Positions 5,918-26,492 of a DNA stretch of 64,000 nucleotides are shown piece after piece (position 1 is the stretch's first letter; each line of letters begins with the position of its first letter). Origin of the DNA: Enterococcus crotali (GTDB lineage: Bacteria > Bacillota > Bacilli > Lactobacillales > Enterococcaceae); NCBI RefSeq assembly GCF_000633635.1, contig NZ_AYPQ01000003.1, forward strand, positions 215,694 through 279,693, read 5' to 3'. The notes under the pieces were generated by a model. It was not told the DNA's origin and did no database searches. It saw only the letters and a program-made list of their open reading frames with translations. Made by a program: the position numbers and the translations under genes.

Positions 5918-6040
5918 AAAAAAGCAGTACAAACTATTTAATTAGTTGACAATCAGAAAATCGATGATAAAACCTGCTTTGTTTCACTCATCATTTATTC
6001 AGCTATTTTCCGAGAGAATCCAGTTTGTCTAGCAAGATTA
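5918..6040 (-). promoter_or_regulatory. leader RNA element, copy 5 (before ytoI)
   Basis: The most divergent copy of the five-copy family, but the predicted pairings are kept. In RNA sense ACAAACT (6022-6028) pairs with AGTTTGT (5929-5935). The hairpin loop AAAGCAG (5974-5980) is complementary to CTGCTTT (5921-5927), which abuts the Shine-Dalgarno. Both helices differ in sequence from the acnA copies, so this copy supplies covariation. The conserved TCTCGGAAAA block is present at about 6006-6018. Confidence 0.6.
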
Positions 6041-6198
6041 GAAATCTATGTTCTTAAGTATCCATACAATTGTTCGACAATCATGGTGACTGTCACGATT
6101 CAGCTCATGTTTTTTCTGAGTAATCAATCTGTTTTAGTTCTTTTTAAATCATTACTGAGACAGAAGGCTCTTTCTCATCATTTGACTTCACTTAAAAA

Positions 6199-6207
6199 GT
6201 ATAACAA
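6199..6207 (-). promoter_or_regulatory. extended -10 promoter for ytoI-nrnA
   Basis: Minus-strand TGTTATACT gives an extended -10. Transcription would start near 6192, giving a roughly 290-nt leader that contains RNA element copy 5. A hairpin-rich segment at 6100-6190 may be a degenerate further copy. Confidence 0.5.
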
Positions 6208-6428
6208 AAAATCCTACATTTTAGTACAGTTATTCTCTTCCTATTGTAACAGAAGATAAAAATAAACGAATGACTTTTTCTTGATTTGGACAATAAACTG
6301 ACCAAATCCCTCCTTTTTCCCAATATTTTGTTGATTAGAATTAGTTTCATTATTTTTTTACTGACATTTTTTTCAAAAAAGGAGTATGATAGTAGCGGAT
6401 CATTTACACTTTTTGAGGAGATGGATAA

Positions 6429-7873
6429 ATGGAAACCATAAATAGTTTTCAAGAAAATACAAAAGTACAAAAAATCGCTGGTGGATTTTGATTTCTGTGG
6501 CAATGTTTACGTTTATGTCCACATTAGATGCCAGTATCGTCAATATAGCATTGCCGACAATTTCCAAAGATATGAATGTACCGATGAATCAATCAGAATG
6601 GATCGTTTCGATTTATTTGATGATCGTCTGCGCTTGTTTATTGCTTTTCGGGAAAATCGGGGATAGTTTTGGCAAGATCAAAGTGTATCGGATCGGGACT
6701 GTAGTCTTTACGATTGGCTCTTTATTATGTGGATTTAATCAGTCGTTGGGCTTTCTTTTATTTGCACGGATTGTTCAAGGGATCGGTTCAAGTATGACGA
6801 TGGCTGCAAATTCCGGGATCATCACAGAAGTTTTTCCATTTAAAGAACGTGGTCGAGCATTAGGATCGATTGGTGCTTTCGTTTCTCTGGGGTCGATTGC
6901 AGGACCTGGGATCGGTGGTTTGATCCTTTCTCAATTTTCATGGTCGTATATTTTTTGGATCAATGTTCCTGTTGGCATCATCACCATTTTGATTGGTGAG
7001 AAATTCTTACCAAAGGATATTACCAAAAGCGGCAAAAAAGTCGATATGCTTGGATTTAGTTTATTTGCGGTATTTATCATGACGTTCTTTGGTGGTATTT
7101 TTATTGGTCAGGAAATTGGCTTTAATGCTGCTTTATCAATGGTACTGTTCGTTTTTGCAGTACTTTCATTTATCATTTTCATTAGAGTGGAAAAACGTGT
7201 TAGTCACCCGTTGATCACCTTTTCGATTTTTAAAAACAAAGTCTTTACCATGAGCTTGATTACAGCTGTGTTGATTTTTTCATCTAACTTCTTTGTCAAT
7301 GTTGTGATTCCGTTTTATTTGCAAAATGCACGTGGTTTACCTGCAAGTAAAGCAGGATTATTGATGATGGTCTTTCCTTTATTGATGGTCGTAGGTTCAC
7401 CTATTAGCGGTTTTTTAACAGATAAAATCGGTACAAAGCTTTTAACTTTTTCTGGATTGATTTTATTATCGATCACGTCTTTGATGTATATGTTTTTAAA
7501 TCAAAGCACGCCGCTTTGGTATTATATTTTAGCGACCGGCATTATGGGGTTGGGCAATGCACTTTTCCAATCGCCCAATAATACAACTGTTATGAGTAGT
7601 GTGTCCAAAGAGGATTTAGGCGTTGCCGGAAGTATGAACTCGTTTGCTCGTAACTTAGGGATGGTTTTAGGCATTGCGTTAGCTACAACGATTTTATATA
7701 ACGCAATGAGCGCCGTTTATGGGCAACGTGTAACAACATTTATCAGCGAACGTCCCGATATCTTTATTTTTGGGATGAGAACCACTTTCTTAGGTTCCTT
7801 TATTTTATGTTTGACAGCTTTAGGGCTGACTTTGTTCCGTTCCTTAAAAGCTAGAAAAAATGAAATAGACTAA
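6429..7873 (+). pseudogene. DHA2-type (14 TM) MFS drug exporter, apparent frameshift near N-terminus
   Basis: An EmrB/QacA-family proton-driven multidrug exporter. After the short cytosolic start the frame gives successive membrane helices, with the TM1 motif STLDASIVNIALPTI, motif A-like GKIGDSFGK, motif C-like GAFVSLGSIAGPGIGG, and 14 predicted helices. The natural start is ATG 6429 after GAGGAG. As given, that frame stops after about 20 codons because the A run at 6469-6474 has six A where seven would restore NRWWILISVAMF. The remaining frame from 6488 has only a poor start. Repaired length is about 481 aa. No regulator is adjacent. Confidence 0.8.
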
Positions 7874-7918
7874 AAAATGAAACTGGTCAGGTCAATCTGA
7901 TTCAGTTTCATTTTTTTA
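7873..7918. terminator. bidirectional terminator between MFS and holin genes
   Basis: AAAATGAAACT pairs with AGTTTCATTTT across a 16-18 nt loop. T tract on the right and A-rich on the left, so it can serve both convergent genes. Confidence 0.7.
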
Positions 7919-7940
7919 ATAGCTACAAAAACGCGTGGAA

Positions 7941-8330
7941 CTATTCATCTTCTTTTCCACTTTTGATATTCTTGATAAAATTCTCAAATAATTCAGTTCC
8001 GATCCCCATTTTTTTGTAATTTTCAAGGATCGACTTTAACTCCATTAGCAGATAACCAACGTATAAAACATAAATCAGCCCCACACCTGCTCCACCTGGA
8101 ATCAATGGTGCTAAAGGAATAAAAAACATCAGCAAGACCATACTTGCTACTTTCCTCAAAATTCCATTGATTCCTACTTTACTTAAAAAGTTGATTTTTG
8201 GATTGATTTTTGCAGCTAAACTACCGCTTAAAAAATCAATGATCATTGCAATACAAATCAATGTCAAGACATAAATTGCTTTGTGATCTGCATCTACTAA
8301 AAAACGATCTAAATACTCAAACACCTTCAT
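7941..8330 (-). CDS. phage holin family protein
   Basis: About 129 residues of the phage holin family related to TcdE (Holin_4_1 type). It has three to four hydrophobic segments, with the family patterns IDFLSGSLAAKINP and GINGILRKVASM, and GVGLIYVLYVGYLLMELKSI towards the C-terminus. Holins form membrane lesions that release endolysin. The start at 8330 has AGGTGG upstream; an in-frame ATG at 8348 lacks one. No endolysin gene is adjacent, so this is a phage remnant or a captured secretion function. Confidence 0.8.
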   Translation of the reverse strand: MKVFEYLDRFLVDADHKAIYVLTLICIAMIIDFLSGSLAAKINPKINFLSKVGINGILRKVASMVLLMFFIPLAPLIPGGAGVGLIYVLYVGYLLMELKSILENYKKMGIGTELFENFIKNIKSGKEDE

Positions 8331-8502
8331 AATTACCACCTTTTTCATTATTTGCTTAAATCTATTCTTGCGTTTTGATTAGATCCGCTAGTTCGAACTA
8401 AATGTTTTTTCTATTCTTTTTGAACATTGTTTAACTAACGATCTAACAATAGTTTACCTGATTTATTTCTAGTTAGATTGGCACATTTCTCCCATAATAA
8501 TG

Positions 8503-8922
8503 TCATTTTTCTATCAATAGTTTCCCGTTCTCATAAGACTCCGCAAACCGAATCATCGCTTTATCTAACTCTCGATAAAACTTACTCTCACTCATGTGAT
8601 GTTTCATATAAATTGCAATATTTGTTGTAAAATTACGATCCATATACTTGTCGTATAATAGTTGTCTATCATACGTATCTAACTGATTCATCGTTTCTGT
8701 GATTTTGGCTAGTTCCAATTCAGCAAGATACTTACGCTCAACTACTTTATCCGCTTTACGGGAAAATTCTCCGTTAGTACTTTTCATTTCAAATGTATAA
8801 GCAGCAGTTACATTAGGTGAATGTTGTTCTCCAGCGATTCTTACTAAAGAACGGTACGTATTTAATAAATCATGGACCTTTTTTTTCGTTTTTTTTCGAT
8901 CAATTTCAGGAAATAATAGCAT
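8503..8922 (-). CDS. ArpU family phage transcriptional regulator
   Basis: 139 residues resembling ArpU, a late-gene regulator of enterococcal and related phages first described as a regulator of muramidase export. It has an N-terminal stretch of basic residues (DRKKTKKKVHDLL), a central helical region and a C-terminal sigma-70-region-4-like HTH (SESKFYRELDKAMIRFA). Start ATG 8922 follows AAAGGAGAGG. It lies 155 nt upstream of the holin gene on the same strand, a usual order (ArpU before late functions) although the late genes are missing. Confidence 0.75.
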   Translation of the reverse strand: MLLFPEIDRKKTKKKVHDLLNTYRSLVRIAGEQHSPNVTAAYTFEMKSTNGEFSRKADKVVERKYLAELELAKITETMNQLDTYDRQLLYDKYMDRNFTTNIAIYMKHHMSESKFYRELDKAMIRFAESYENGKLLIEK

Positions 8923-9253
8923 CCTTTATCCTCTCCTTTACTTAATGTCTGATGTTCAATAGTTAACGTTTGAAGCGTTCATATAGTGTCGTTGTTTTTA
9001 CCACTAAGCAATAGCTCAGCAAAATAATAGCTCTTGATTTTTTTTATAATATTTTTTATTTTCAATTCCTTTCTTTTTCTTATTTAGTGAATTAGCTAAT
9101 ATATAATAAAATCGTTGACTAAAATTAGCATTTACGCTATTATATAAGTATAGTTAAATAAGCTCTATTCTACTTCCGCCGCTTTCTCATTTTAGAGATT
9201 GACTGCTAGAATGCTTTGCCTAACTATTTACTGATAAATTAGCTTATAAGAAC

Positions 9254-9282
9254 ATTTTAATAGCTTAAAAGCTAATTGTCAA
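9254..9282 (-). promoter_or_regulatory. leftward phage-island promoter with operator in its spacer
   Basis: On the minus strand TTGACA (9277-9282), exactly 17 bp, then TAAAAT (9254-9259). The spacer is the palindrome TAGCTTTTAAGCTA, so repressor binding there would block RNA polymerase. It points to the ArpU/holin genes. Confidence 0.7.
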
Positions 9283-9304
9283 CTAAAAATAGCTTAAAAG
9301 CTAA
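9261..9304. promoter_or_regulatory. two identical operator palindromes for the CI-like repressor
   Basis: TAGCTTAAAAGCTAA occurs at 9261-9275 and 9290-9304, 29 bp apart (about three helical turns). Related half sites are at about 9240-9250 (TTAGCTTATAAG) and 9089-9097 (ATTAGCTAA). They lie between divergent genes directly upstream of the repressor, as in a phage immunity region. Confidence 0.65.
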
Positions 9305-9341
9305 CATTTTTTTCATTTAAGCTTATGAAAGGTTGAAAAAC

Positions 9342-9719
9342 ATGAGTTTAACTTACAGAATCAAAGAGCTTGCCGACAAGAAAAAAGTGACCTTTGCAGA
9401 AATCGAGCGAAATACTGGTATTTCTAATGGGCAAATTCGTCGCTGGGATACGTCTTCTCCAAAAATAGAAAATATCCAAAAAGTAGCGGATTATTTTGAT
9501 GTTTCCACTGATTACTTGCTTGGAAGATCAGAAGTACCTTCTATTTCTGCAACAGCTCAAGAAGAAAATCTTTCCTCACAAATTATGTTTCGGATGAATA
9601 CTGATGGCTTGTCTGAAAATGAAGTGGATGAATTGAAAGATGAAGTAGATCGTTTTCTTCGTTTCAGAAGATCTGAAATCGAACGTGAACGAGAATTAAA
9701 ACAAGACGACAAGGCGTGA
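9342..9719 (+). CDS. CI-like XRE family repressor
   Basis: About 125 residues. An N-terminal HTH_3 domain (residues about 1-65: RIKELADKKKVTFAEIERN, GISNGQIRRWD, NIQKVADYFDVSTDYLLGR) is followed by an acidic/basic helical tail. There is no peptidase domain. It probably binds the palindromes at 9261-9304 upstream of its own gene and represses the leftward promoter. ATG 9342 is 9 nt after GAAAGG. It is followed 7 nt later by an ImmA/IrrE-type protease gene, the classic pair of ICE and prophage immunity modules. Confidence 0.88.
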   Translation: MSLTYRIKELADKKKVTFAEIERNTGISNGQIRRWDTSSPKIENIQKVADYFDVSTDYLLGRSEVPSISATAQEENLSSQIMFRMNTDGLSENEVDELKDEVDRFLRFRRSEIERERELKQDDKA

Positions 9720-9726
9720 TTAATGG

Positions 9727-10404: not shown

Positions 10405-10420
10405 TACAAGCGACAGAACC

Positions 10421-10474
10421 AATGAGAGTGAAACTAAAAATCAGTTATGCTGATTTTAGTTTCACTCTCATTTT
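10421..10474. terminator. bidirectional terminator after the ImmA-like gene
   Basis: AATGAGAGTGAAACTAAAA is repeated in inverted form across a short loop, with T residues on the right. The AAAAATCAG core recurs in several terminators of this window. Confidence 0.7.
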
Positions 10475-10912
10475 GTATAGAGCAAAAAAAACCACCACGA
10501 CCGTCGTCTGTGGTGGAAATGAAGGTTGTTATTTACTCTTTGGTAGGAGTAAGTATGAAAAACCAATTCGGGATAATTGGCATGAAGACATGTTAACATC
10601 TTCACTTAAAATAAAAATGAATAGCTATTTTGTATTCCATAAAAAAACTATGAGGAATTACTCATAGAGTAGTATTTACGTTTCCCTTTAGTTTATATTC
10701 TTTCAAACCATATTAGTTCCAACATTTATATGCCTGTGCTACACTTTTATTAGTACCAACGAAATGTTACTGATGTATTATTTAGCTGTACAAATCACTC
10801 TCTAGAAAACTAGATAACTGTCTATGAAACAAAAATTGTTTCAATCTCACTTCCCTAATTTTCTATGTGATCGACCGATTTGTTCCGCTTTAAAATTTAG
10901 GAGGAATGTATT
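10475..10912. other. intergenic region without a convincing gene
   Basis: It contains a CCACCAC/GTGGTGG hairpin (about 10490-10516) and, on the minus strand, an ATGAG/CTCAT hairpin with a T tract near 10640-10670 that may be a terminator. Reading frames here are short and cross these hairpins. The baeRF-like gene's AGGAGG lies at about 10900. Confidence 0.5.
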
Positions 10913-12043
10913 ATGTTAGATCAAGAAAAAGACAATTTATCTGTTCTATTCTCTGACGAAGTTCAAGGTCCCTTTGTAACATTTATTCTAAATACTCATG
11001 TCGCTCACCAAGATGTCGAAAAGGATTCTTTAGCCTTAAAAAATTTTGCTAAAGCTGCCAAAATCCGCTTTGAAAAAAAATATACTGAACACTCTTGGAT
11101 ACCTATTCAAGAAAAGATCGATGCCTTACTTGCTGATGCGTCATTTTGGCGAAATGCAACGAAGAGTGTATCAATTATTATAAGTGAGAAAGACATTTTC
11201 ATTCACCGTTTAAATGTCCCTGTTGACAATCAATACTACGTTGACGATCGACCTTATCTCCTTGGTATCATCAAAAATAATCAATTTAACTATCGTTATT
11301 ATCTAATGGCTTTAAATCGTGATTCTATGCAGCTGTTTTTAGTTGAAAATAATCAAGTCAAAAAAGTCGATTTACCTGACGATGCGCCAACTGACCTTGT
11401 CAAGGCGTTAGGCGATGAGCTCACTGGCGGTAGTATGAACTACTCGATTCAAGGCGGCACAGGTTATAACGGTTCTTCAAAAGAAGGCGTCGCTTATCAT
11501 GGTGTTAATACAAAAGATGAAGAAGTAAAAATCGACTGGACAAACTATTATCAAGCAATCGATAACTTTTTAAAAGACACCTTTGTAAACCCTGATAACT
11601 TACCTATTCGCTTATATGCGTTACAAGAAAATCAAACATTGTTTAAAAAAATCGCAAAAAACCCTTATCTTGTAACTGATGCTTCAATATCACTTTCACC
11701 TGCACAAGTTTCATTCCAAGAGATTGAAAAGGGTGCACATAAAATCAATGAAGAATTAGAAGCAATTGAAACCGCAACGTACAATTCGTTGCTAGATAAA
11801 AAATTTGTCGATCAGCTTGTTGACATTTTACCAGCATCTAACGAAGGGAAAATATCTCACTTCTTTATCTCTACTGCAAATTTAGTGAATGAAACCACTG
11901 AAATGTCAACAGAAGAATTTGACCGGCGGAAGGTTTTGAATAAAGTCACAGATAATGTTTTAAAAACCGGCGGAACAGTCTTCGTATTAGACCAAAAAGC
12001 TTCACCTGATGAAAAGACATTGTTAGCTATTCTACGGTATTAA
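10913..12043 (+). CDS. baeRF-family (release-factor-like) protein of unknown function
   Basis: 376 residues, soluble, no signal peptide. The C-terminal half (FISTANLVNETTEMSTEEF, then VLKTGGTVFVLD near the end) matches the eRF1-domain-3-like fold of bacterial archaeo-eukaryotic release factor proteins. A Gly/Ser-rich loop (QGGTGYNGSSKEG, about residues 180-195) precedes it. Related proteins are thought to act on stalled ribosomes or in stress, but no role is established for this one. It starts at ATG 10913 after AGGAGG and ends before a strong terminator, so it is a single-gene unit. Confidence 0.65.
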   Translation: MLDQEKDNLSVLFSDEVQGPFVTFILNTHVAHQDVEKDSLALKNFAKAAKIRFEKKYTEHSWIPIQEKIDALLADASFWRNATKSVSIIISEKDIFIHRLNVPVDNQYYVDDRPYLLGIIKNNQFNYRYYLMALNRDSMQLFLVENNQVKKVDLPDDAPTDLVKALGDELTGGSMNYSIQGGTGYNGSSKEGVAYHGVNTKDEEVKIDWTNYYQAIDNFLKDTFVNPDNLPIRLYALQENQTLFKKIAKNPYLVTDASISLSPAQVSFQEIEKGAHKINEELEAIETATYNSLLDKKFVDQLVDILPASNEGKISHFFISTANLVNETTEMSTEEFDRRKVLNKVTDNVLKTGGTVFVLDQKASPDEKTLLAILRY

Positions 12044-12066
12044 GTATCTTTTCATAGTAAAATGGA

Positions 12067-12103
12067 CAAGAGCCGCTCAACAGATACGTTGAGCGGCTCT
12101 TTA
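12067..12103 (+). terminator. strong terminator after baeRF-like gene
   Basis: A perfect 13-bp GC-rich stem (AAGAGCCGCTCAA with its complement, 12067-12079 and 12088-12100) and a short T run. Confidence 0.8.
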
Positions 12104-12396
12104 ATTAAGTGTATTAAATATTTTTTTAGCTATAAACCATGTAAAAACTATCTATTAGTAAGGATAACCTTATTCTCATCTAAACAATCTGAACCCTTCC
12201 TACTTTCAAATCTATGCAGCTCCAAGGCTGCGCCTTCGGAATAGATTTCTACGACATAACTCTATCATTACTTTCATATCTAATGCTTAATACTCCTATA
12301 CTATAACAGAAATAAGTTTTTTTTGACAATTAATCTTTATTTCTTAACAAATTTTTATTTAAAGGAGAGATATCACTAGTCAAACGCGGTTAAATA

Positions 12397-12405
12397 TGCT
12401 ATATT
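12397..12405 (+). promoter_or_regulatory. extended -10 promoter of the cold-shock gene
   Basis: TGCTATATT at 12397-12405 gives an extended -10. The start near 12412 leaves a 5' untranslated region of about 110 nt, typical of cold-shock mRNAs whose leader structure changes with temperature. The region 12104-12395 holds one short hairpin (about 12220-12240) and no gene. Confidence 0.5.
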
Positions 12406-12521
12406 AAGAGTGTAGTTTTTGTTCGGTAATATATGTGTAGCTGTTTCAAATAAACATCTTCCACATTTTCACCTTTCAAGTAATTGCAAAATATGTGTAT
12501 ATCACAAGGAGGATTTTTATT

Positions 12522-12722
12522 ATGGAAACAGGTACAGTAAAATGGTTTAACTCAGACAAAGGTTTTGGATTTATCACTGCAGAAAACGGTAACGATGTAT
12601 TCGTACATTTCTCAGCTATCCAAGGCGACGGATTCAAAACTTTAGAAGAAGGTCAAGCAGTGACTTTCGACGTTGAAGAAGGCCAACGTGGTCCTCAAGC
12701 TACTAACGTTAACAAAGCATAA
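12522..12722 (+). CDS. csp: cold-shock protein (CspA family)
   Basis: 66 residues, a single OB fold with RNP1 (KGFGFI, about residue 15) and RNP2 (VFVHFSAI, about residue 27), preceded by the family start [10 protein letters not shown]. It binds single-stranded RNA and DNA and melts mRNA structure. The start at 12522 follows AGGAGG; an in-frame ATG at 12495 is before that site and was rejected. The long leader suggests post-transcriptional control. A hairpin terminator follows the stop. Confidence 0.96.
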
Positions 12723-12746
12723 TCAACTTAACATTAGTAAATTCAA

Positions 12747-12777
12747 AACCTGACGATTCTTTCGTCAGGTTTTTTTA
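12747..12777 (+). terminator. terminator of the cold-shock gene
   Basis: AACCTGACG pairs with CGTCAGGTT across a 7-nt loop and is followed by a T run. Confidence 0.85.
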
Positions 12778-12789
12778 TGCAAAAAAACA

Positions 12790-12885: not shown

Positions 12886-14162
12886 TAACTATTTTCAATA
12901 AGTCGAACTAACTCTTCTCCAAATCCCGAGCAACTTAATACTGTTGCGCCTTCCATTTGCTCTGCAAAATCCTTCGTAACAGTTTTATTGATTAAAGCTT
13001 CTTCTATACTTTTCGTGATTAACTGACTAGCCTCAGTCCAACCTAAATAATCAAACATCAATACGCCAGAAAGCAACAATGATGACGGATTCAACTGATT
13101 TAACCCTGCAAATTCAGGTGCGGTTCCGTGCGTTGCCTCAAAAATTCCATGCCCTGTTTCCAAATTTAAATTCGCTCCTGGAGCAATTCCGATCCCACCA
13201 ACTTGAGCAGCTAATGCATCTGAAATATAATCTCCATTTAAATTCAAGGTGGCAATCACATCATACTTTTCAGGATGTAGTAAAATTTCTTGTAAAAAAA
13301 TATCAGCAATTCGATCTTTAATGATTACTTTTCCAGCTGCCTCAGCTTTGGCTAATTGCTGGTCTGCCGCTTCCTTGCCATCCTTATTTTTAATTGCTAA
13401 GTACATTTCCCACGTGAATACACTGTCTGCAAATTCATTTACAGCCAACGCATAGCCCCAGTTTTTAAAACCGCCTTCTGTAAATTTCATGATGTTCCCT
13501 TTATGAACAAGCGTGACCGATTTTCGATTATTTTTCAAAGCATGTTCAATTGCCCCTCGAATTAAGCGTTCTGTTCCTTCTTTTGATACAGGCTTTATTC
13601 CGATTGCAGATGTTTCCGGAAAGCGAATCTTATTGACTCCAAATTCTGTTCTTAAATAAGAAATCAGTTTCTCCGCTTCTGGACTTTTTGCAGGAAATTC
13701 AATTCCAGCATAAATATCTTCCGTATTTTCTCTAAAAATCATCATATCTGTTTTTTCTGGGTGTTTTAATGGAGAAGGCACTCCTTCAAAATAACGGACC
13801 GGTCGATAACAGATATATAAATCTAATTCTTGTCGCAACGCTACATTCAATGAACGAATTCCTCCACCAATTGGCGTTGTTAATGGACCTTTGATCGCTA
13901 TCAGGTGGCTTTTGATCGTTTCTAATGTTTCATCTGGCAACCAGCTACCAGTTTTATTAAATGCCTTTTCTCCAGCTAACACTTCTTGCCAAATTACTTT
14001 CCGAGATCCTTTATAGGCCTTATTTACAGCTACATCGAACACATTCTTAGCAGCTTGCCAAATTTCAGGCCCAATTCCATCTCCTTCAATAAAAGGAATA
14101 ATCGGAAAATCAGGAACGACTAATGCCCCATTTTCCAACACAACTTTCTTTCCACTTGTCAT
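12885..14162 (-). CDS. icd: isocitrate dehydrogenase (NADP type)
   Basis: 425 residues, the full length of bacterial NADP-dependent Icd. It oxidatively decarboxylates isocitrate to 2-oxoglutarate. Visible family motifs include [12 protein letters not shown] near the start, [18 protein letters not shown] (substrate arginines, about residues 100-117), [20 protein letters not shown] (about 220-240), and [12 protein letters not shown]-like and [12 protein letters not shown] regions towards the C-terminus. Its ATG overlaps the citZ stop (ATGA), so translation is coupled. With citZ and acnA it forms the route from oxaloacetate and acetyl-CoA to 2-oxoglutarate and glutamate. Confidence 0.95.
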
Positions 14163-15304
14163 GCTTCCATGCCTCCCGAATGTAATCTCGTGTTCAAGTC
14201 ACTATACTTCAACTGTTTAGGACCAATATAGTGCGAGCGAGGTCGAATTAAGCAATCTTCTTTCTTCTGTTCATCAATATGGCCTAACCAACCAGAAACT
14301 CGACTCATTGCAAAAATCAACGTAAATAAATCACTATCAATATCTAAACAATGATACACCGTTGCAGAATAAAAATCGACGTTTGGAATCAAGCCTTTGG
14401 TCTCTTTTAAATAGTGCTCTACTTGGCAAGATAAAAAGTACCACTGTTCTTTTTTAGCAATCGCTGTTAACTCTTTAGCCAGTTTTTTCAAATGTTTTTT
14501 CCTTGGATCTTCGGTTTTATAAACACGATGCCCAAAGCCCATAACTTTTTCTTTACGATCTAATTTTTGATTTAGATAGTCTTCTACATTTAAATTTTTA
14601 GAATCAATTTCTTTTAACATATCAAATACTTTCTCATTAGCGCCCCCGTGAAGTGGGCCTTTTAAAGAACCAATTGCAGCCGTAATGCAAGAATAAACAT
14701 CTGACAATGTAGATGCACAGACTCTAGCTGTAAACGTACTGGCGTTTAAATCATGATCTGCGTGTAGCACTAGCGCTTGATTCATAGCTTCAACTTGCAC
14801 AGGATCTGCTTGCACTCCTGTTAGCATATACAGAAAGTTTGCTGCCAACGATAAATCACTTCGCGGAGAAATAGGATCAAGACCTTTTCTCAAACGGGCA
14901 TATGCAGCAATAATCGTGGGCATTTTTGCTTGTATCGAAATACTTTGCTGATACGCCGAAATTTCATCTGTTGCTTCAGCATTTGGATCAAATACGCCTA
15001 ATAATGAAATCGTTGAACGCAACACACTCATTGGATGAAGATTTTGGCGTGTTTGGATTTTTAAACACGTAATGATCGTATCAGATATCGGCATTTGTAA
15101 AGATAGTTCTTGTTTGAATTTTGTCAACTCTTCTTTTGACGGTATTTTTAAATACCATAATAGATAAATCACTTCTTCAAATTGAACATTCTCAGCAACT
15201 AAATCATCAATATTAAAACCTGCAAAAAGCAGTTGATTTTCTACGATCGAACTAATTTTTGTTTCAGAGACAACGACTCCGTCTAACCCTCTGTGAATCT
15301 CCAT
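14159..15304 (-). CDS. citZ: citrate synthase
   Basis: 381 residues from ATG 15304, which has GGAGGG 8 nt upstream. A longer frame to 15397 would translate the conserved RNA leader and was rejected. Catalytic and binding motifs are present: [12 protein letters not shown] (catalytic His, about residue 185), [10 protein letters not shown] (about 220) and the MGFGHRVYK loop (about 260). It condenses acetyl-CoA and oxaloacetate to citrate, the reverse in carbon flow of the citrate lyase encoded next door. It overlaps icd by 4 nt and carries leader RNA element copy 3 directly before its ribosome binding site. Confidence 0.95.
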
Positions 15305-15321: not shown

Positions 15322-15440
15322 TAAAAGCGTAGTAGGCTCGTTTAACTCCGACTAGAAAATAGGAACCGATGACTGAGGTGCTCTTTGCCTCATTCATCAG
15401 TTATCTTTTTTCCGAGAGACTAGCCATGCAGCTAGATAAC
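15322..15440 (-). promoter_or_regulatory. leader RNA element, copy 3 (before citZ-icd)
   Basis: In RNA sense it has GGCTAG, TCTCGGAAAA, a hairpin with loop CAAAGAGC and GAGCCTAC, then ACGCTTTT (15323-15330) ending 6 nt before GGAGG. The loop can pair with GCTTTT with one G-U pair. The closing stem is shorter here (GGCT/AGCC). It lies within the acnA-citZ gap, so citZ can be controlled separately from acnA. Confidence 0.65.
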
Positions 15441-15471
15441 ATACAGCGTAACCGTCAATTTTACTTTGCCT

Positions 15472-15573: not shown

Positions 15574-18288
15574 TTACCCTTGAAGTTTCTTACGAATCAC
15601 CATTGGCAAAATGCCACCATGCTGATAATAGGTGATATCAACAGCCGAATCAAAACGAAGGATGGTTTCAAATTGAATGATTTCTCCATTCGTTTTCGTT
15701 GCAGTAACAACTACCGTATCTAAAATCCCTTTGGTCTCATCAATAGCAATGTCAAATAACTCGGTTCCTGTTAGTCCTAAGCTATCCGCATCTTCACCTG
15801 GCTTGAACTGTAATGGTAAAACACCCATCATAACTAAGTTAGAGCGGTGGATTCGCTCATAACTTTTCGCAATAACTGCCTCAACGCCTAATAGTTGAAC
15901 ACCTTTAGCTGCCCAGTCTCTTGATGAGCCCATCCCGTAGTCATCACCTGCTAAAATCACGAGCTTCGTATCTTGTTTTTGATACTTCATTGCTGCGTCA
16001 TAAATAGCCATCTTTTCTTGCGTTGGTGCAAAAATAGTATAGCCACCTTCTACATCTGGTACTAGCTGATTGCGAATGCGAATATTAGCTAATGTTCCTC
16101 TCATCATCACTTCATGGTGACCACGTCTGGCACCATAAGAGTTAAATTCACGAACTGGTACCCCTCGATCTATCAAATACTCACCTGCTGGACTATTTTT
16201 TTGAATGTTTCCAGCAGGAGAAATGTGATCGGTTGTTACAGAATCACCAAACTTAGCTAAGACAGCTAATTGTTTTAATGGTTTTCTAGGTTCTCTTTCT
16301 TTAGTCATTCCTTCAAAATAAGGTGGATTCGCAATGTAAGTAGATGCTTCTTCCCAACCGTATAGCGGCTTATCATCAGTTTCGATACGATTCCATTCTT
16401 CATTGTCACTAAAGACTCGTGCATATTCTTGTTTATATAGTTCAGGTGTCACACATTCATCGATCAGTGTTTGAATTTCATCACGAGTTGGCCATAAATC
16501 GTTGAAGTAAACCGGGATATCATTTTCACCAAAACCAATTGGTTCATGGAGTACATCAAGGTTTACTGTTCCAGCTAATGCGTATAAAACAACAAGTGGT
16601 GGTGAAGCTAAATAATTTGCTTTAACTAATGGATGAATACGTCCCTCAAAGTTCCGATTTCCACTTAAAACGCCTGACATTAGAAGATCATTTTCTTTTA
16701 TGACTTCTTCCACTTCTGGCTTCAACGAACCTGAATTACCAATACACGTTGTACAACCATACCCTACCAAATGAAAACCTAGTTCTTCTAAGTAAGGCAA
16801 TAATCCAGCTTTTTCTAAATAAGCTGTTACGACTTTTGAACCTGGTGCTAAAGAAGTTTTTACATAATTTGGTACTTTTAACCCAAGCTGAGCAGCTTTT
16901 TTAGCTACTAATCCTGCACTTAACATCACAAATGGATTTGATGTGTTTGTACACGAGGTGATTGCTGCAATCGCTACTGCTCCTGGTTTTAATTCATGAT
17001 GCACGCCCTCTAAATCTAACGCAACACTTTGCTCCTGTTGTTTTTTAGATAATCCATATCCTTGCAAACCTTCTGGCGCATTTATTGCTTGTTCAAATGC
17101 TTCTTTCATTTCTGATAAAGGAACGAGATCTTGTGGTCTTTTTGGTCCGGCAAGGTTGGCCTCAATTTCACTTAAATCAATTTCAATGACCTTAGTATAA
17201 TTCGGCTCTAAATCATTTAAAGGCTCATAAAATAATTGATTTTCCTTCAAATAACGTTCGGTAACTGATACCGCTTCTGCTTCCCTCCCTGTTAGTCGCA
17301 AATAACGAATCGTTTCCTCATCGACAGGAAAAAAACCACACGTTGCGCCATATTCAGGTGCCATATTAGCTACAGTTGCCCGATCAGCCAAACTTAAACT
17401 AACTAAGCCTGCCCCAAAGAATTCAACAAATTTCCCAACCACTTTTTGTTCTCTTAATACTTGAGTTACTTTTAAAGCCAAATCGGTCGCCGTTGCGCCT
17501 TGAGATAACTCATTGACAAAGCGAACACCAACAACTTCGGGAATTGGAAAATAAGAGGGTTCACCAAGCATACTCGCCTCGGCCTCAATTCCGCCAACAC
17601 CCCAACCTAATACCCCTAATCCATTGACCATCGTTGTATGTGAATCTGTTCCAACTAAGGTATCAGGATAGAGTAAAATCGTACCATCCTCTAGTTTTTT
17701 CTGTGTCACAACAGAAGCTAAATATTCAATATTGACTTGATGAACAATGCCTGTTGCAGGTGGTACGACCCGATAATTATCAAAAACTTTTTGAGCCCAA
17801 CTTAAAAAACGATAACGCTCTTGATTGCGTTGAAACTCCATTTTCATATTTAACTGTAACGCTTGTTTGACCCCAGCTACATCCACTTGAACAGAATGAT
17901 CCACAACCAAATCAACAGGAACTTCGGGATTTATAGTCGTAGGATCGCCACCAAAATCAGCGATTGTTTTTCGTAAAGATGCTAAATCAACGACCGCTGG
18001 CACACCTGTAAAATCCTGAAGAATTACTCGAGCTGGTTTAAATGGGACTTCGCCTTTATTTGGATGAGACGCTGACCATTGGGCTAAATTTTCAATATGC
18101 TCTTGCGTGATACCGATACCATTTTCCTGACGCAATAAAGATTCCAACAATACCCGAATACTAAACGGTAACTTTGAAACAAACTGATCTTGTTCCGTTT
18201 CTAATGAAGCTAATGAATAATATTGATACTTCTGATCCTTCATTTCAAAAACTTTTTCTGAAGATTGCTTACTCGTAATCAAAAACAT
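15574..18288 (-). CDS. acnA: aconitate hydratase A
   Basis: About 904 residues, the full length of AcnA/IRP1-type aconitase, isomerising citrate and isocitrate with a 4Fe-4S cluster. Cluster ligands appear in [10 protein letters not shown] (about residue 440) and [10 protein letters not shown] (two Cys, about 505-510). [20 protein letters not shown] (about residue 215) and the swivel-domain [16 protein letters not shown] (about 785) are also seen. The ATG at 18288 touches GGAGGG; a TTG two codons on (18282) is better spaced and may be the real start. It is followed by citZ-icd on the same strand. Two tandem leader RNA elements lie between promoter and start. Confidence 0.95.
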
Positions 18289-18299
18289 CCCTCCTAATT

Positions 18300-18420
18300 T
18301 AAAAGCGTAGCAGGCTCGTTCTGGCTTGACAGGAAAATAGGAAAAATTGATTGAGACGCTTTTTGTCTCACTCCTTTTTTATCTTTTTCCCGAAAGGCTA
18401 GCCTGTGAAGCTAGATAACA
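18300..18420 (-). promoter_or_regulatory. leader RNA element, copy 1 (proximal, before acnA)
   Basis: Closing stem: RNA ACAGGCT (18400-18406) with AGCCTG (18311-18316). Hairpin GAGAC/GTCTC carries the loop AAAAGCGT (18356-18363), which is perfectly complementary over 8 nt to ACGCTTTT (18301-18308). That 3' strand lies 6 nt upstream of GGAGGG. This copy shows the pseudoknot most clearly. Confidence 0.7.
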
Positions 18421-18422
18421 AT

Positions 18423-18545
18423 AAAAGCGTAGCAGGCTCGTTCAGCTCTGGCAGGAAAATAAGAAAATACGTTTGTAACGCTTTTCGTCACAAGCAGATT
18501 TTATCCTTTTTCTGTAAAGCTAGCCCATATAATCAACTATCTCAA
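18423..18545 (-). promoter_or_regulatory. leader RNA element, copy 2 (distal, before acnA)
   Basis: Directly upstream of copy 1 in head-to-tail order. Hairpin GTGAC/GTTAC has the loop AAAAGCGT, complementary over 8 nt to ACGCTTTT (18423-18430). A GGGCT/AGCCT closing stem has one G-U pair. It is not followed by a ribosome site, so it would act together with copy 1. Confidence 0.65.
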
Positions 18546-18602
18546 TTCATAACTATGTACAGTATCAAAAACCGTATCTCCATATATGACTTGATTTTAG
18601 CC

Positions 18603-18631
18603 ATTATAACGGCATTATAAATAAATGTAAA
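18603..18631 (-). promoter_or_regulatory. acnA promoter
   Basis: Minus-strand TTTACA (18626-18631), 17 bp, TATAAT (18603-18608). Transcription from about 18596 gives a roughly 300-nt leader holding both RNA elements. The remaining gap to 18930 is AT-rich with no gene. Confidence 0.75.
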
Positions 18632-18971: not shown

Positions 18972-18975
18972 CTCA

Positions 18976-22428: not shown

Positions 22429-22429
22429 T

Positions 22430-23317
22430 TTAGACTTCCTCCTCAGAAATTAATTTTGCTGCAATCGCTAACGCAATTACTCGCTCTGCTCGTTCAACAA
22501 TCGGTTTATCCACCATTTTCCCATTGACTGAAATCACGCCTGAACCTTTTGCTTCGGCTTCGCGAATACCCCAAATCACTTCTTTGGCATTTTGAATTTC
22601 TTTTTCAGTCGGTTCATAGACACTGTTAACTAATGGTATTTGACGCGGATTGATGACAGATTTACCATCAAAGCCTAATTGTTTGATCAGCTCAACTTCA
22701 GCTAAGAACCCTTGTGTATTATCAACATCTGAATATACAGTATCAATTGCTGCAATTCCGGCTGCTCTTGCTGAGTGTAAAATAAAACTACGAGCAAAAA
22801 ACAATTCTTGACCATCTGGGTAACGATGTGTTTTCATATTCGTTACATAATCCTCTGCTCCAAGTGCGATACCAATCAATCGATCACTTGCACATGCAAT
22901 TTCTCGGGCGTTCAAAACACCTTCAGCTGATTCGATTGCCGCCATCATTTTAGTTTTTCCAACACTAATGCCATATTTTGTTTCCATTTCAGTGATCACT
23001 GCCGCAACATCAATAATATCTTGAGCTGTTTCTGTCTTTGGTAGACGAATCACATCAACACCTGCCAAAACCATCGCTTCAACATCTTGGCGACCAACTG
23101 TATCTAACCCATTGATTCGCACAACTGTTTCTACAGTTGAGTAATCAAATGTCCGCAAAGCATTATACACAAGCAGACGAGCACTATCTTTTTCTTTTAA
23201 AGAAACAGCATCTTCTAGGTCAAACATCAATGAATCAGCGCCATATAAGGTTGCATCTCTAAGCATTGAAGCATTGGCTCCAGGTACAAACATCATCGTT
23301 CTTCTTAAGCGTTCCAT
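22430..23317 (-). CDS. citE: citrate lyase beta subunit (citryl-ACP lyase)
   Basis: About 295 residues from ATG 23317 ([13 protein letters not shown]), which overlaps the citD end. A longer frame to 23398 only shadows citD. It is an HpcH/HpaI-type TIM barrel with [17 protein letters not shown] (metal-binding region, about residue 40), VIRLPKTE and [11 protein letters not shown] (about 160). It splits citryl-ACP into oxaloacetate and acetyl-ACP. The gene order citC-D-E-F-X is the standard one. Confidence 0.95.
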
Positions 23318-23612
23318 GTATTTAACACCTGCCAATCTACATTTTCTTCGCCAGCAGCACGATAAACTGCCGCAATAGTCCGCGCTTCGATCGTACAATC
23401 TAGCGCTCCTTTGTCTACTGCATTGACCTTCACATTCGTTACTTCTAATTTTTCCAATGTTTCTTGAATTTTCGCTCGAATCTGACGACCAAATTGTTTT
23501 TCAACACTGCTATCTAAATCAATTTGAATCCCCTTTACTTCATTTTGATCGAGCATGATCAAATGTCGCTTGATTCTGTTGTACCTGCGGATGCGTTTTG
23601 CTTAATTTCCAA
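23305..23612 (-). pseudogene. citD: citrate lyase acyl carrier protein, apparent frameshift
   Basis: From TTG 23612, 12 nt after citC with AGAGGTG upstream, the frame reads [17 protein letters not shown], the conserved CitD start that includes the serine carrying the prosthetic group. It then hits a stop because the A run at 23561-23563 (plus strand) has three bases where four would keep the frame. The remaining 85 codons ([24 protein letters not shown]) are intact CitD in the shifted frame and could start only at a weak TTG (23562) lacking the modified serine. Repaired length is about 102 aa, normal for CitD. If the deletion were real, citrate lyase would be inactive. Confidence 0.85.
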
Positions 23613-23624
23613 AATGGACACCTC

Positions 23625-24620
23625 TTATTCTTTTTTTTGATTCATTATTTCTTTGAATGTACTATCAGGAACAAGCGATTTTATTGCTTCATACGCTTGT
23701 TTTTCCATTAAAGCTCGGACCCTTGAAGCACTGATCACTTCATTATCCGCTGTTTTTCTAGGTAGAACGATCAAGTTCAATGCAGAAGAAAATACTTTTT
23801 TCATTGCTTGATTATAGATATTTGTCACAGGTGACAATGGTTCTTCCCCAACAAACCTTGTCGTAATATCTAAAATAGGTGCAATTTTCTCTTTAAAGAG
23901 TGTCGCATCCAATTCTGCTTGAACTTTTGCTACATTGTCTTTTGCTTGGTTTTTTAAAAAATATGAAGGAAATGTTGCGCTTGAAACGATATATTCTCTT
24001 GTCGGTAAAACAACGACATTTGATAAATGACTAGTTCCTTCTTTTACCAATTCAAAACGTGTCTTTGCATCAAATAAGGAGCGTTCCTCAGACAAAACAA
24101 AGAGATAAACTGTTTCAGTACGTTTAGCTGCTTCTGTAACTAAATATAAATGACCATTCGTAAATGGGTTTGCATTCATTACGATTGCTGCATTTTGTTT
24201 TGTCATTCGTTGCTGCTTTTTGAGTTCCACTAAATAATCTTCAAAATCAGGAAAACCTTGCTCCATAAAAACTAGTTCGGCTGTTGCCGCAATTTCAGTA
24301 AAGCCTAAAGAGCGAAATAGCTTACTAGTTTCTGGCTTTGTATACAAAAAATAATGCTGATAGCCTATTTCCTGCAGCCTTTCACGTAATGCTTGAACGA
24401 TTTGAGAAAGCAGGTTTTCATTTTGATAAGAGGAGTCAATTGCAACACATTTCAAAATATTTCTAAAAATCGATCCTGTTCCAATCAACTGCTCCTGATC
24501 AAAGATGCCGATTGTATAGTCTAACTGATCATCAGGTAGTAGATCAGCCGCAGCTAGAAAATCTGACCACTGCTGTTTTCCTACCTGATCTCGATCAAGC
24601 CAAATTCTTCTGACATTCAT
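23625..24620 (-). CDS. citC: [citrate (pro-3S)-lyase] ligase
   Basis: 331 residues. An N-terminal GNAT-like domain (about 1-130) precedes a nucleotidyltransferase domain with the HxGH-type motif NPFTNGHLYLV (about residue 152), and ISASRVRALME near the end. It acetylates the CitD prosthetic group with acetate and ATP, switching citrate lyase on. Complete length for CitC. It is followed 12 nt later by citD and preceded by the small Oad subunit gene. Confidence 0.93.
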   Translation of the reverse strand: MNVRRIWLDRDQVGKQQWSDFLAAADLLPDDQLDYTIGIFDQEQLIGTGSIFRNILKCVAIDSSYQNENLLSQIVQALRERLQEIGYQHYFLYTKPETSKLFRSLGFTEIAATAELVFMEQGFPDFEDYLVELKKQQRMTKQNAAIVMNANPFTNGHLYLVTEAAKRTETVYLFVLSEERSLFDAKTRFELVKEGTSHLSNVVVLPTREYIVSSATFPSYFLKNQAKDNVAKVQAELDATLFKEKIAPILDITTRFVGEEPLSPVTNIYNQAMKKVFSSALNLIVLPRKTADNEVISASRVRALMEKQAYEAIKSLVPDSTFKEIMNQKKE

Positions 24621-24633
24621 TTCTTACCACTTC

Positions 24634-24759
24634 CTACTTCTTCGGTGGAAATAATTTATTCAACATAAAAGACGCAAAGTAAATCACGAAAATGACAACA
24701 AACACGCCACCCCATCCAAAAACCAAAAGTTCCAATGATTTAAGTAAATCAGCTGACAT
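24634..24759 (-). CDS. small membrane subunit of oxaloacetate decarboxylase (gamma/OadG-like)
   Basis: A 41-residue peptide (start MSADLLKSLE, end KLFPPKK) with one transmembrane helix of about 22 residues (GWGGVFVVIFVIYFASFML). It lies between oadB and citC with its own ribosome site. Size, topology and position match the short gamma-type subunits that anchor decarboxylase complexes. It is easily missed by gene finders. The assignment rests on context and topology, not on a catalytic motif. Confidence 0.7.
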   Translation of the reverse strand: MSADLLKSLELLVFGWGGVFVVIFVIYFASFMLNKLFPPKK

Positions 24760-24794
24760 AAGCCAAACCCCTTTCCTTTTCTTCTATTAAAATT

Positions 24795-25910
24795 CTAGGC
24801 AAGTAATGCTAGTAATAAACCGCCTGCAATAACAGACGCAATTTGTCCAGATACATTCGCACCTGCTGCATGCATTAAAATAAAGTTCTGTGGATCTTCA
24901 TCTGTTGCCATTTTTTGGATCACTCGACTAGACATTGGAAAGGCAGAAATCCCAGCTGCACCAATCATCGGATTGATTTTTTCTTTTCTAAACAGATTCA
25001 ATAATTTGGCAAACAAAACACCACCAACTGAATCCATGATAAAGGCAACTAATCCAAGACCAATGACCATTAAGGTATCAACTTGTAAAAATTCTTCGTA
25101 CTGCATTTTTACTGAAATCGCCAATCCAAGCACAATACTGATTAGGTTTACCAACTCATTTTGAGCCGTCACAGATAAACGATCCAAGACGCCACATTCA
25201 CGTAATAAGTTCCCAAACATTAAGAAACCAACTAACGGAAGCGAAACCGGCGCTACTAAGCCAGCAACGACCGTGATCACGATAGGGAATAAAATCTTCG
25301 CTGTTTGTGATACTTCACCAGCACGATAAGTCATGCGGATTTTGCGTTCTTTTTTCGTTGTAACTGCTTTGATTGCCACAGGCTGAATGATCGGAACCAA
25401 GGCCATATATGAATAAGCTGCCACCATAATTGCACCCATGTATTTCGAATTCAACGTATTCGCAACGAAAATAGAGGTTGGTCCATCAGCTGCTCCGATA
25501 ATCCCGATAGAAGCCGCATCATTTAAATCAAAACCTAATAGAACGGCTGCAATAATCGTAAAGAAAATCCCAAATTGCGCGGCTGCTCCGAACAATAATA
25601 AAAATGGATTTTGTAATAATGGCCCAAAATCGATCATAGCGCCAATGCCGATAAATAGTAATAATGGAAATAACTCTGTTGAAATTCCCATATCAAACAA
25701 CACTTGAAACGGGCCTGCTTCGCCGCCCGCACTTAGTACACCTGAATTGGGAAAATTGACTAAAATCGTTCCTAATCCCATTGGAACGAGTAAGGTAGGT
25801 TCGTACTCTTTTTTGATCCCTAAGTACATCAGGATGGCTCCAATCAGCATCATTACAATACGACCAGGCTCCTGTCCCATTCCCACTACGCCTTCAATTA
25901 ATGTTTCCAC
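24795..25910 (-). CDS. oadB: oxaloacetate decarboxylase beta subunit (sodium pump)
   Basis: About 371 residues with around nine to eleven membrane helices. OadB decarboxylates carboxybiotin and couples this to outward Na+ transport. Family features seen are GAMIDFGPLLQNP, GIIGAADGPTSIFVANTL (the conserved aspartate region, about residue 140), VAYSYMALVPIIQP, and NPMIGAAGISAFPMSSRV near the C-terminus. A GTG at 25919 is too close to its AGAGG; the GTG at 25910 is better spaced. It lies 45 nt after oadD. Confidence 0.93.
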   Translation of the reverse strand: METLIEGVVGMGQEPGRIVMMLIGAILMYLGIKKEYEPTLLVPMGLGTILVNFPNSGVLSAGGEAGPFQVLFDMGISTELFPLLLFIGIGAMIDFGPLLQNPFLLLFGAAAQFGIFFTIIAAVLLGFDLNDAASIGIIGAADGPTSIFVANTLNSKYMGAIMVAAYSYMALVPIIQPVAIKAVTTKKERKIRMTYRAGEVSQTAKILFPIVITVVAGLVAPVSLPLVGFLMFGNLLRECGVLDRLSVTAQNELVNLISIVLGLAISVKMQYEEFLQVDTLMVIGLGLVAFIMDSVGGVLFAKLLNLFRKEKINPMIGAAGISAFPMSSRVIQKMATDEDPQNFILMHAAGANVSGQIASVIAGGLLLALLA

Positions 25911-25954
25911 AAACGTCACTTCCTCTTTTAAAATTTAACTACTTTTTTATTTAT

Positions 25955-26353
25955 TTAACCGATTGTAATCAATGGTTCTCCCGGATTGACCATCTCACCT
26001 TGTTGAACATGGATCCCTGTGACCGTGCCAGCTTTGCCAGCAACGATTTCATTTTCCATTTTCATCGCTTCAAGAATCATTAATGGCTGATTTTCTTGGA
26101 CAGTATCACCAACATTTACCAAGATTTTCAAGATAGTTCCAGGCATTGGTGATGGCATGGCATCGTTTCCGGCCGGCGTGTTTGCAATAGGTGCTGTTGG
26201 TTCAGTTGCAGGTGTTGGTGTTGGTGTCGCTTCTTCTACAGGAGCCACTGGTGCAACAGGTGCTGCGATTGGTGCTTGGGGTACCCCACCAATTTCTTCC
26301 ATTTCTACTAAATACTCTTTTCCATCAATTGAAATTTTAAACTTACGTAACAT
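25955..26353 (-). CDS. oadD: biotin carrier subunit of oxaloacetate decarboxylase
   Basis: 132 residues. A short N-terminal segment and a Pro/Ala/Thr linker (about residues 22-65) precede a biotinyl domain with the biotinylation motif EAMKMEN (lysine about residue 98). The carrier shuttles carboxybiotin between OadA and OadB. Enterococci use a separate carrier, and here OadA indeed lacks one. It is the first gene of the main operon, starting at ATG 26353 after AGGAGGAG. Leader RNA element copy 4 lies immediately upstream. Confidence 0.92.
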   Translation of the reverse strand: MLRKFKISIDGKEYLVEMEEIGGVPQAPIAAPVAPVAPVEEATPTPTPATEPTAPIANTPAGNDAMPSPMPGTILKILVNVGDTVQENQPLMILEAMKMENEIVAGKAGTVTGIHVQQGEMVNPGEPLITIG

Positions 26354-26369
26354 TTTTTCTCCTCCTAAA

Positions 26370-26492
26370 ATTTAAAGTGTAATGGACTCGTTGAGACTCG
26401 ACTGAAAAATAGGAAATTATGACTGAGGTGCTTTTTGCCTCATTCATCATTTATCTTTTTTCCGAGAGTCTAGCCCATGAAACTAAATAATA
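26370..26492 (-). promoter_or_regulatory. leader RNA element, copy 4 (before oadD-cit operon)
   Basis: Closing stem: RNA ATGGGCT (26472-26478) with AGTCCAT (26382-26388), 7 bp including one G-U pair and different in sequence from other copies. It has TCTCGGAAAAAAGAT and an ATGA.TGAGG hairpin with loop CAAAAAGCA. The 3' strand here is CACTTT, so loop pairing is only about 4 bp. It ends 8-10 nt before AGGAGG. Confidence 0.65.

Follow-up and report, generated by a model that had tools for sequence, protein, structure and literature searches.

Our main reading, to which we give roughly even odds, is that of a structured repeat of about 120 nt that occurs throughout Bacilli, is anchored at Shine-Dalgarno (SD) sequences in one enterococcal clade, and there tunes genes in cis without a dedicated ligand. 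The element came to attention in a 64,000-nucleotide stretch of Enterococcus crotali DNA (the window), where a first-pass annotation had proposed a five-copy riboswitch; that guess gives way to a structured-repeat family across Bacilli. Sequence comparisons demonstrate that the family exists, that its predicted structure covaries and how far it has spread, and they show that copies are gained, lost and multiplied in tandem at orthologous sites.

Copies of the element in the window and their target genes

The five copies of about 120 nt reported initially are all present and alignable, and all five are on the minus strand. Their limits and bit scores were set by a covariance-model search. The set was incomplete, as the window contains two more clear copies (10776 to 10893, plus strand, 65.1 bits; 36676 to 36794, minus strand, 46.3 bits) and a copy of a weaker related subtype (56242 to 56339, plus strand, 35.1 bits, covering model positions 15 to 111) that has no adjoining SD. 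Placement on the minus strand alone therefore describes the five copies first noted but not the window, where the copies at 10776 and 56242 are on the plus strand. The gene-proximal copies are oriented with their genes and end at the SD as claimed, 15 to 18 nt ahead of an SD-preceded start.

Two tandem copies precede the aconitase gene acnA (longest ORF 15574 to 18288, minus strand; a possible start is the TTG at 18282), a gene-proximal one at 18300 to 18420 (minus strand, 127.8 bits) and an upstream one at 18422 to 18542 (minus strand, 86.9 bits). Upstream of both is a promoter-like TTTACA/TATAAT (18603 to 18631, minus strand, computed position) that a scan of 16 orthologues detected in 15, placing the acnA copies within the presumed transcribed leader. 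The copy in the leader of the citrate synthase gene citZ (15322 to 15441, minus strand, 105.6 bits) overlaps the longest ORF call, which starts at 15397. An SD-preceded start lies instead 17 nt 3' of the element, and this start defines the citZ coordinates used here (14159 to 15304, minus strand). In the oad cluster, the copy at 26372 to 26492 (minus strand, 128.3 bits) lies 18 nt ahead of the ATG of the gene for the biotin carboxyl carrier subunit (25955 to 26353, minus strand).

The remaining copies also adjoin gene starts, apart from the weaker subtype. A divergent copy at 5919 to 6042 (minus strand, 36.9 bits) has an SD-preceded ATG 15 nt downstream, that of a ytoI/SpxR-like CBS/HotDog regulator gene (4584 to 5903, minus strand) whose product scored 485 bits, short of the curated cut-off of 600. 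The copy at 10776, which the first-pass annotation lacked, precedes an ORF call of 376 amino acids (10913 to 12043, plus strand) with an SD-preceded ATG 19 nt away. The other copy absent from that annotation, at 36676, lies just 5' of the SD and start of an ORF for an amino-acid-type ABC transporter ATPase (36087 to 36659, minus strand), which scores under curated cut-offs.

Predicted fold and covariation

The predicted RNA fold is one long interrupted hairpin composed of P0 (AGC/GCU), P1, P2, P3, P3b and P4, with a conserved unpaired core consisting of UCGG, AGAUAAA facing CCUA, and a GAACG-like bulge between P2 and P1. Among 53 copies from this genome, 29 of 40 pairs had two-sided changes (272 cells against 95 after shuffling, with 0 of 500 shuffles as high), including all seven pairs of the closing stem that had been suggested to covary, and the signal collapsed in a slid-structure control. 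Such changes affected all 34 pairs in an alignment of 71 distinct rows taken from 11 further genomes (803 cells, compared with 231 after shuffling; 0 of 500), and 112 distinct rows that included Bacillales gave 1330 two-sided cells against 384 shuffled (0 of 500), both of these alignments having been fitted to the model. The stems consequently covary both in this genome and across families, as the larger-alignment check proposed at the outset called for, and strongly enough for an Rfam entry.

At the base of the hairpin, the 3' GCU of P0 covaries with the 5' AGC (26 cells with two-sided change, compared with 6.2 after shuffling; 0 of 500), a signal that comes mainly from pair 11-118 (C-G 79, U-A 19). 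We prefer P0 to the loop-to-3'-tail pseudoknot proposed initially, for which covariation failed to appear. Two-sided change was found in 0 of 6 pseudoknot pairs among the 53 copies, and the 112 distinct rows, drawn from many genomes, contained 7 such cells against 4.9 shuffled, a value reached by 98 of 500 shuffles, and a re-dealing control gave 94 of 200. Complementarity between loop and tail is itself frequent, at 79.9% of cells, so the two may nevertheless pair. An alternative 5' hairpin, CUAGC/GCUAG, was paired in 90.2% of cases, yet it had 0 two-sided changes, no better than shuffles, and was rejected.

Most copies in the genome are anchored at SD sequences

The E. crotali genome contains at least 143 copies in 92 clusters, a count that adds the divergent copy of the window to 142 model matches across 3.9 Mb; 150 candidates were scored, and the copy at 36676 is not among the matches. 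A blastn query with a single copy against its own genome returned 78 matches (best non-self E value, 1.7e-37). In 70 of the 90 clusters read, an SD-preceded start codon lay 14 to 22 nt past the element, compared with 48 of 3360 intergenic positions drawn at random and none of the 90 when the elements were reversed. Of the 20 clusters that failed this test, 2 look anchored by eye. Throughout the genus, copies are mostly upstream of genes and in the sense orientation, with the base of the hairpin a few nucleotides 5' of the SD. Up to six copies stand in a row before one gene, and each extra copy adds about 121 nt to the leader.

The first-pass annotation had set its riboswitch against a mobile repeat scattered without regard to gene starts or orientation, and our findings fall on both sides. 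The copies are genome-wide and resemble a dispersed repeat, yet in this genus they follow gene starts and orientation very strongly. Outside the genus, copies in several other genera and families lie elsewhere than at gene starts.

Gain and loss at orthologous sites

Among 21 genomes with acnA, intact copies precede the gene in 7 (one to six copies each), decayed copies in 2, and none were detected in 12. The copies, numbering from zero to six, lie between a conserved promoter and the SD, and the SD is also present where there are no copies. In all six element-free genomes whose upstream region was read, both promoter and SD are kept. This site speaks against a riboswitch on which control of the targets depends, since the conserved promoter and an identically placed SD are there whatever the copy number, from none to six. 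At tsf, copies were found by HMM match in 16 of 22 genomes, one of them truncated, so that presence/absence polymorphism at orthologous sites occurs at both acnA and tsf.

The tails of the copies suggested that the SD might be part of the mobile unit. We dropped this idea on finding that acnA and tsf sites lacking the element already have an SD at that position, several of these being AAATTTAGGAGG-like. Inspection of the tsf and acnA sites by eye, which was not systematic, showed no target-site duplication. The search for a mobilizing enzyme covered the Y1 transposase, which was unsupported as a general mover: 5 of the 12 element-bearing genomes have it, and the E. crotali genome does not.

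Distribution and relation to known repeats

Element-bearing genomes made up 22 of 22 searched in the genus, 55 of 105 in the family, 150 of 395 in the order and 43 of 348 in the class, and the 22 genomes of the genus carry from 3 to at least 150 copies each. Anchoring is uncommon outside the genus: of 43 loci in ten genomes, 6 passed a similar test, and of 20 Bacillales loci none did. A blastn search with a window copy found no match among 72,556 plasmid records and 50,697 phage records. Seven core-word matches in viral contigs were read, of which three were real elements (two locus entries, one 22,996-base contig) and four were not.

The initial view that the element fits no described class holds for Rfam. 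No Rfam family matched at gathering score over the element in the window or at 13 Bacillales loci, and with permissive filters the overlapping matches at 4 E. crotali loci and 15 loci of relatives were all far below gathering. In open-licence PMC text, searched with core words included, no title or abstract described this hairpin-repeat family, which does not by itself establish absence from print.

With dispersed non-genic copies, a palindromic fold and site polymorphism, the element is best read as an interspersed structured repeat family of the BOX/ERIC/bcr1 kind. BOX of Streptococcus pneumoniae and the BOX-type repeats of S. suis are described as interspersed structured intergenic repeats of 67 to 637 bp, and the element resembles them in being multi-copy and intergenic with varying array length (PMC3049150). 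As described there, BOX has a modular A-B-C organization, and BOX, RUP and SPRITE are over-represented between convergent genes, whereas our element is a single hairpin in tandem, in the sense orientation before SDs in this genus. The account of bcr1 and other Bacillus cereus group repeats gives lengths of 100 to 400 bp, features of mobile elements and an average of 39 bcr1 copies per strain (PMC6542083); these repeats differ by description in being group specific and TTTAT linked, some with plasmid copies. Efa-1 of Enterococcus faecalis, a stem-loop family of 163 bp with 65 matches, shares with the element an intergenic, structured and enterococcal character but is described as an adjacent stem-loop pair of 163 bp (PMC2267715). 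Going by these descriptions, the hairpin-repeat family differs from BOX, bcr1 and Efa-1, although it may yet be related to BOX or Efa-1. The family is apparently undescribed.

Possible function of the anchored copies

In this clade, an effect of the element in cis on translation or mRNA fate is likely. The hairpin may have inserted beside preexisting SDs, would have been retained there owing to a position just outside the 30S footprint, and could then act in cis, with no dedicated ligand, to adjust how translation starts or how stable the leader is. Predicted SD accessibility was intermediate (mean unpaired probability of 0.43, or 0.48 with P1 enforced). The idea that the CCUA strand of P3 masks the SD was rejected because its signal was weak: the duplex with this 3' strand had -6.5 kcal/mol against -5.6 kcal/mol for shuffled strands, and its value was the lower one in 74% of the 68 leaders. 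One enterococcal group provides dozens of natural 5' leaders, including that of acnA with zero to six hairpin copies behind the same promoter. They offer a ready set for measuring what a structured module just outside the ribosome footprint does and for studying how a repeat turns into a regulatory part.

A possible though doubtful alternative is that the element is a selfish or neutral MITE-like repeat that strongly prefers to insert next to SDs and stop codons, and whose fold serves its own spread with no effect on host genes. The gain, loss and decay at acnA and the unrelated targets would fit such a repeat, and BOX has been viewed in print as parasitic (PMC3049150). Also consistent is a second placing mode beside opposite-strand ORFs, in which the 3' end of the element lies within 16 nt of the stop side at 10 of 43 loci from other genera and families and at 4 of 90 E. 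crotali clusters, and within 7 nt at 6 of 20 Bacillales loci. However, anchoring to within a few nucleotides in a single orientation is hard to obtain by insertion alone, and neither the plasmid and phage collections nor the patchy occurrence of the Y1 transposase favors this explanation. In 22 of 31 arrays the gene-proximal copies outscore the most distal, which also speaks against a purely selfish repeat but would equally result from recency.

We hold it unlikely, but worth stating, that the element is a Bacilli-wide structured RNA whose sequence-specific core is read by a conserved cellular factor and that one enterococcal clade recruited it, ahead of more than 70 ribosome-binding sites, as a modular leader tuned by copy number, so that a dispersed repeat gave rise to a genome-wide post-transcriptional network. 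Rather improbable, too, is a landing site for a conserved RNA-binding protein, RNase or sRNA that recognizes the unpaired core, making the leaders a post-transcriptional regulon. UCGG, AGAUAAA and CCUA are kept across several families while the stems change, and many targets recur between species. Of 49 SD-anchored loci in other genomes, 35 stand before orthologues of E. crotali targets (several loci being one array), which indicates conservation between species above expectation for a freely moving repeat. Against a trans-acting factor, some Enterococcaceae genera and Bacillales have something else in place of AGAUAAA/CCUA, copies read in several families are mostly outside leaders, target functions are incoherent, and no candidate partner was found.

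Returning to cis tuning by the anchored hairpin, we regard a transcription attenuator or terminator, in which the hairpin and the UUUU after it would make RNA polymerase stop or pause ahead of the gene, as a very improbable substitute. GCUUUU does lie directly at the base of the hairpin, and pneumococcal SPRITE repeats are described as terminator-like (PMC3049150), but the basal P0 has 3 bp, with an internal loop between it and P1, and is not a GC-rich stem, and up to six strong terminators in tandem before one gene would silence it.

Least probable of all is the initial proposal of a riboswitch with citrate, 2-oxoglutarate or glutamate as its metabolite ligand: window copies do precede acnA, citZ and the oad cluster, and the element is a covarying structured RNA with a conserved unpaired core, but we rejected this reading because the targets are heterogeneous (at least 70 functionally unrelated genes with no common pathway, among them tsf, clpB, hslV, codY, nfo and acnA) and presence is patchy, to which the copies of relatives outside leaders and the pseudoknot without covariation can be added. 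Tandem riboswitches such as those for glycine and c-di-GMP, as described, are likewise structured leader RNAs for which a tandem arrangement is possible. They control coherent sets of genes. In contrast, the element reaches six copies, precedes unrelated genes, and comes and goes at orthologous sites.

Element copies within and beyond the window

Comparisons within and across genomes showed the element to be structured, dispersed, and gained and lost, with a fixed place 5' of Shine-Dalgarno sequences (SDs) in this genus. All five copies reported by the first-pass annotation were present and alignable. With limits set by R1, a covariance model built from 53 element copies, they lie on the minus strand at 5919-6042 (divergent), 15322-15441, 18300-18420, 18422-18542, and 26372-26492. 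R1 also identified a clear copy just 5' of an SD and start codon at 10776-10893 (plus strand), an SD-anchored clear copy 5' of an ABC transporter ATPase ORF at 36676-36794 (minus strand) that had gone unreported, and a weaker, related but different subtype not adjoining an SD at 56242-56339 (plus strand). No Rfam family attained its gathering cutoff across the element when the window and 13 Bacillales loci were scanned, and permissive scans of 4 own and 15 relative loci gave only matches far below gathering over the elements. Elsewhere in the window, Rfam matched an ordinary lysine riboswitch (38522-38693, minus strand; 83.6 bits), the cspA thermoregulator (12390-12776, plus strand), rli28 (1667-1842, plus strand), and RatA (1905-1991, minus strand).

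A blastn search of the window's own genome with one element copy as query returned 78 matches, and R1 returned at least 142 at E values up to 0.001 (150 of 3099 candidates scored), missing the window copy at 36676. Together with the divergent copy at 5919, the R1 matches amount to at least 143 copies in 92 clusters. We read 90 of these clusters, holding 141 copies, which contained one (54 clusters), two (25), three (9), four (1), or six (1) copies with a period of approximately 121 nt. An SD-preceded start codon lay 14 to 22 nt past the element in 70 of the 90, most commonly at 18 nt. By comparison, 48 of 3360 random intergenic positions and strands from the same loci, window excluded, passed this test, as did none of the 90 clusters with elements read backwards. 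Two further sites (contig positions C6:31954 and C1:639747) appeared anchored by eye yet failed the ORF rule. Among the 20 failing clusters, 4 end no more than 7 nt from the stop codon of an ORF on the opposite strand that is 100 codons or longer. The gene-proximal copy outscored the most distal one in 22 of 31 arrays, which fits either selection or recency. In locus L034, both element copies are followed, just past 3098 and 3294, by another, distinct repeat-like sequence (AAAACACAG..GAACGAAGTGAACTG), and a similar stretch lies 3' of one element copy in locus L025.

The genes behind the element share no common pathway. Window targets are acnA, citZ, and a gene for a biotin carrier, and family searches identified clpB, tsf, hslV, codY, nfo, queG, and a fructose-type PTS gene. 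By our reading of N termini by eye in the same genome, further likely targets include dnaA, recG, serS, argF, pyrB, ddl, dapA, fabD, asp23, and lgt, among others.

RNA structure and covariation

The first-pass annotation had proposed a candidate riboswitch or RNA regulator whose loop and 3' tail would form a pseudoknot. When this pseudoknot and the interrupted P1-P4 hairpin were scored together over the 53 copies, 90.4% of cells were standard, 29 of 40 pairs had two-sided changes (both partners altered), and two-sided cells numbered 272 versus 95 after shuffling, a level reached in 0 of 500 shuffles; the covariation collapsed on sliding the structure. None of the two-sided changes came from the six pseudoknot pairs. 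Across 112 distinct rows, the pseudoknot gave 79.9% standard cells, equal to shuffles, and 7 two-sided cells versus 4.9 (98 of 500 shuffles as high). Loop/tail complementarity is common among element copies, and re-dealt loops and tails matched as well as real ones. These alignments leave the pseudoknot unsupported rather than disproved.

RNAalifold instead proposed a stem, P0, in which AGC near the 5' end pairs with GCU near the 3' end. In the 112 distinct rows fitted to R1, P0 gave 26 two-sided cells versus 6.2 shuffled (0 of 500), nearly all at pair 11-118 (C-G in 79, U-A in 19), with 7 and 0 from the other two pairs. We describe the element as a putative rod closed by P0. Covariation gave no support to a different hairpin at the 5' end.

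In sequences read from ten families, the architecture was kept and the stems were altered. Two-sided changes occurred at all 34 pairs in 71 distinct rows from 11 genomes of five families (803 cells versus 231 shuffled), and the 112 rows, with Bacillales and others added, gave 1330 versus 384 (0 of 500); both alignments were fitted to R1 and thus lean toward its structure. The core UCGG is widely retained among relatives, and AGAUAAA/CCUA is replaced in Bacillales and some Enterococcaceae genera.

Spread and placement among relatives

R1 matched all 22 genus genomes and, under filters stricter than in the genus search, 55 of 105 family genomes, 150 of 395 order genomes (E up to 1e-4), and 43 of 348 class genomes (E up to 1e-7). 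The word at the element-SD junction occurs in E. ureasiticus, E. quebecensis, E. caccae, E. plantarum, E. moraviensis, E. termitis, and E. ureilyticus, among others (80 of 96 stretches listed), and 42 of 97 occurrences had the element core upstream in a loose text test. Its non-enterococcal matches are probably due to chance.

In the 21 other genus genomes, 49 of 55 loci were SD-anchored by a loose test, several loci in these counts sharing one array. Of the 49, 35 lie 5' of genes orthologous (at least 77% identity) to targets in the window's genome, 3 lie 5' of weaker relatives, and 11 are next to neither. Ten genomes from other genera and families supplied 43 loci, in which ORFs were called by length only. 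At 6 of these (genomes G209, G195, and G288) an SD-preceded start lay 14 to 19 nt downstream, and at 10 (G156, G113, G060, G031, and G288) the element ended no more than 16 nt from the stop side of an ORF on the opposite strand. None of 20 Bacillales loci had such an SD-preceded start; at 6 of them the element ended no more than 7 nt from an ORF on the opposite strand. In loci L218-L241 (G156 and G113), several elements end beside the stop side of ORFs on the opposite strand; G113 also contains long tandem arrays.

Gain and loss at acnA and tsf

An acnA match was found in 21 of 22 genus genomes, with intact copies (one to six) at 7 sites, decayed copies at 2, and none detected at 12, one of which holds a remnant by eye. 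Six empty sites that were read have an SD in the corresponding position, and several of these SDs are AAATTTAGGAGG-like. A TTTACA/TATAAT-type promoter was present in 15 of 16 acnA orthologues scanned. It lies at -142 to -174 (four genomes) or -78 (two others) with no copies, -221 with one, -325 and -346 with one plus a partial copy, -343 with two, -613 with four, -864 with five, and -967 with six. Because the promoter-gene distance increases with copy number, the copies lie inside the presumed transcribed leader.

At tsf, 16 of 22 genomes carry copies (one to four detected; one truncated) between a terminator-like stem behind rpsB and the tsf SD; the other 6 gave no element match, with a remnant by eye in one. 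The stem itself is conserved across the genus ahead of the array (loci L144-L165) and is possibly an attenuator of its own.

Relation to known repeats and possible action

By description rather than by sequence, the element appears to be of the same kind as the interspersed structured repeats BOX (PMC3049150), bcr1 (PMC6542083), and Efa-1 (PMC2267715). As far as we can see from the open-licence literature, its strict SD anchoring and class-wide spread are new. A Y1 transposase is unlikely to be its general mover, because only 5 of 12 element-bearing genomes have one and the window's genome has none. The blastn searches gave no match for a window copy against plasmids and phages, for four relatives' copies against plasmids, or for one relative's copy against phages. 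A 22,996-base IMG/VR contig (loci L343 and L346) carries three copies; because these match the copies of locus L024 by eye, the contig may represent chromosomal DNA, from this genome or one nearly identical to it, that was classified as a provirus.

We infer that the element would act in cis, either on the initiation of translation or on the fate of the leader. The SD was predicted to be of intermediate accessibility (0.43, or 0.48 with P1 enforced), and the SD-masking pairing with the CCUA strand of P3 was weak.
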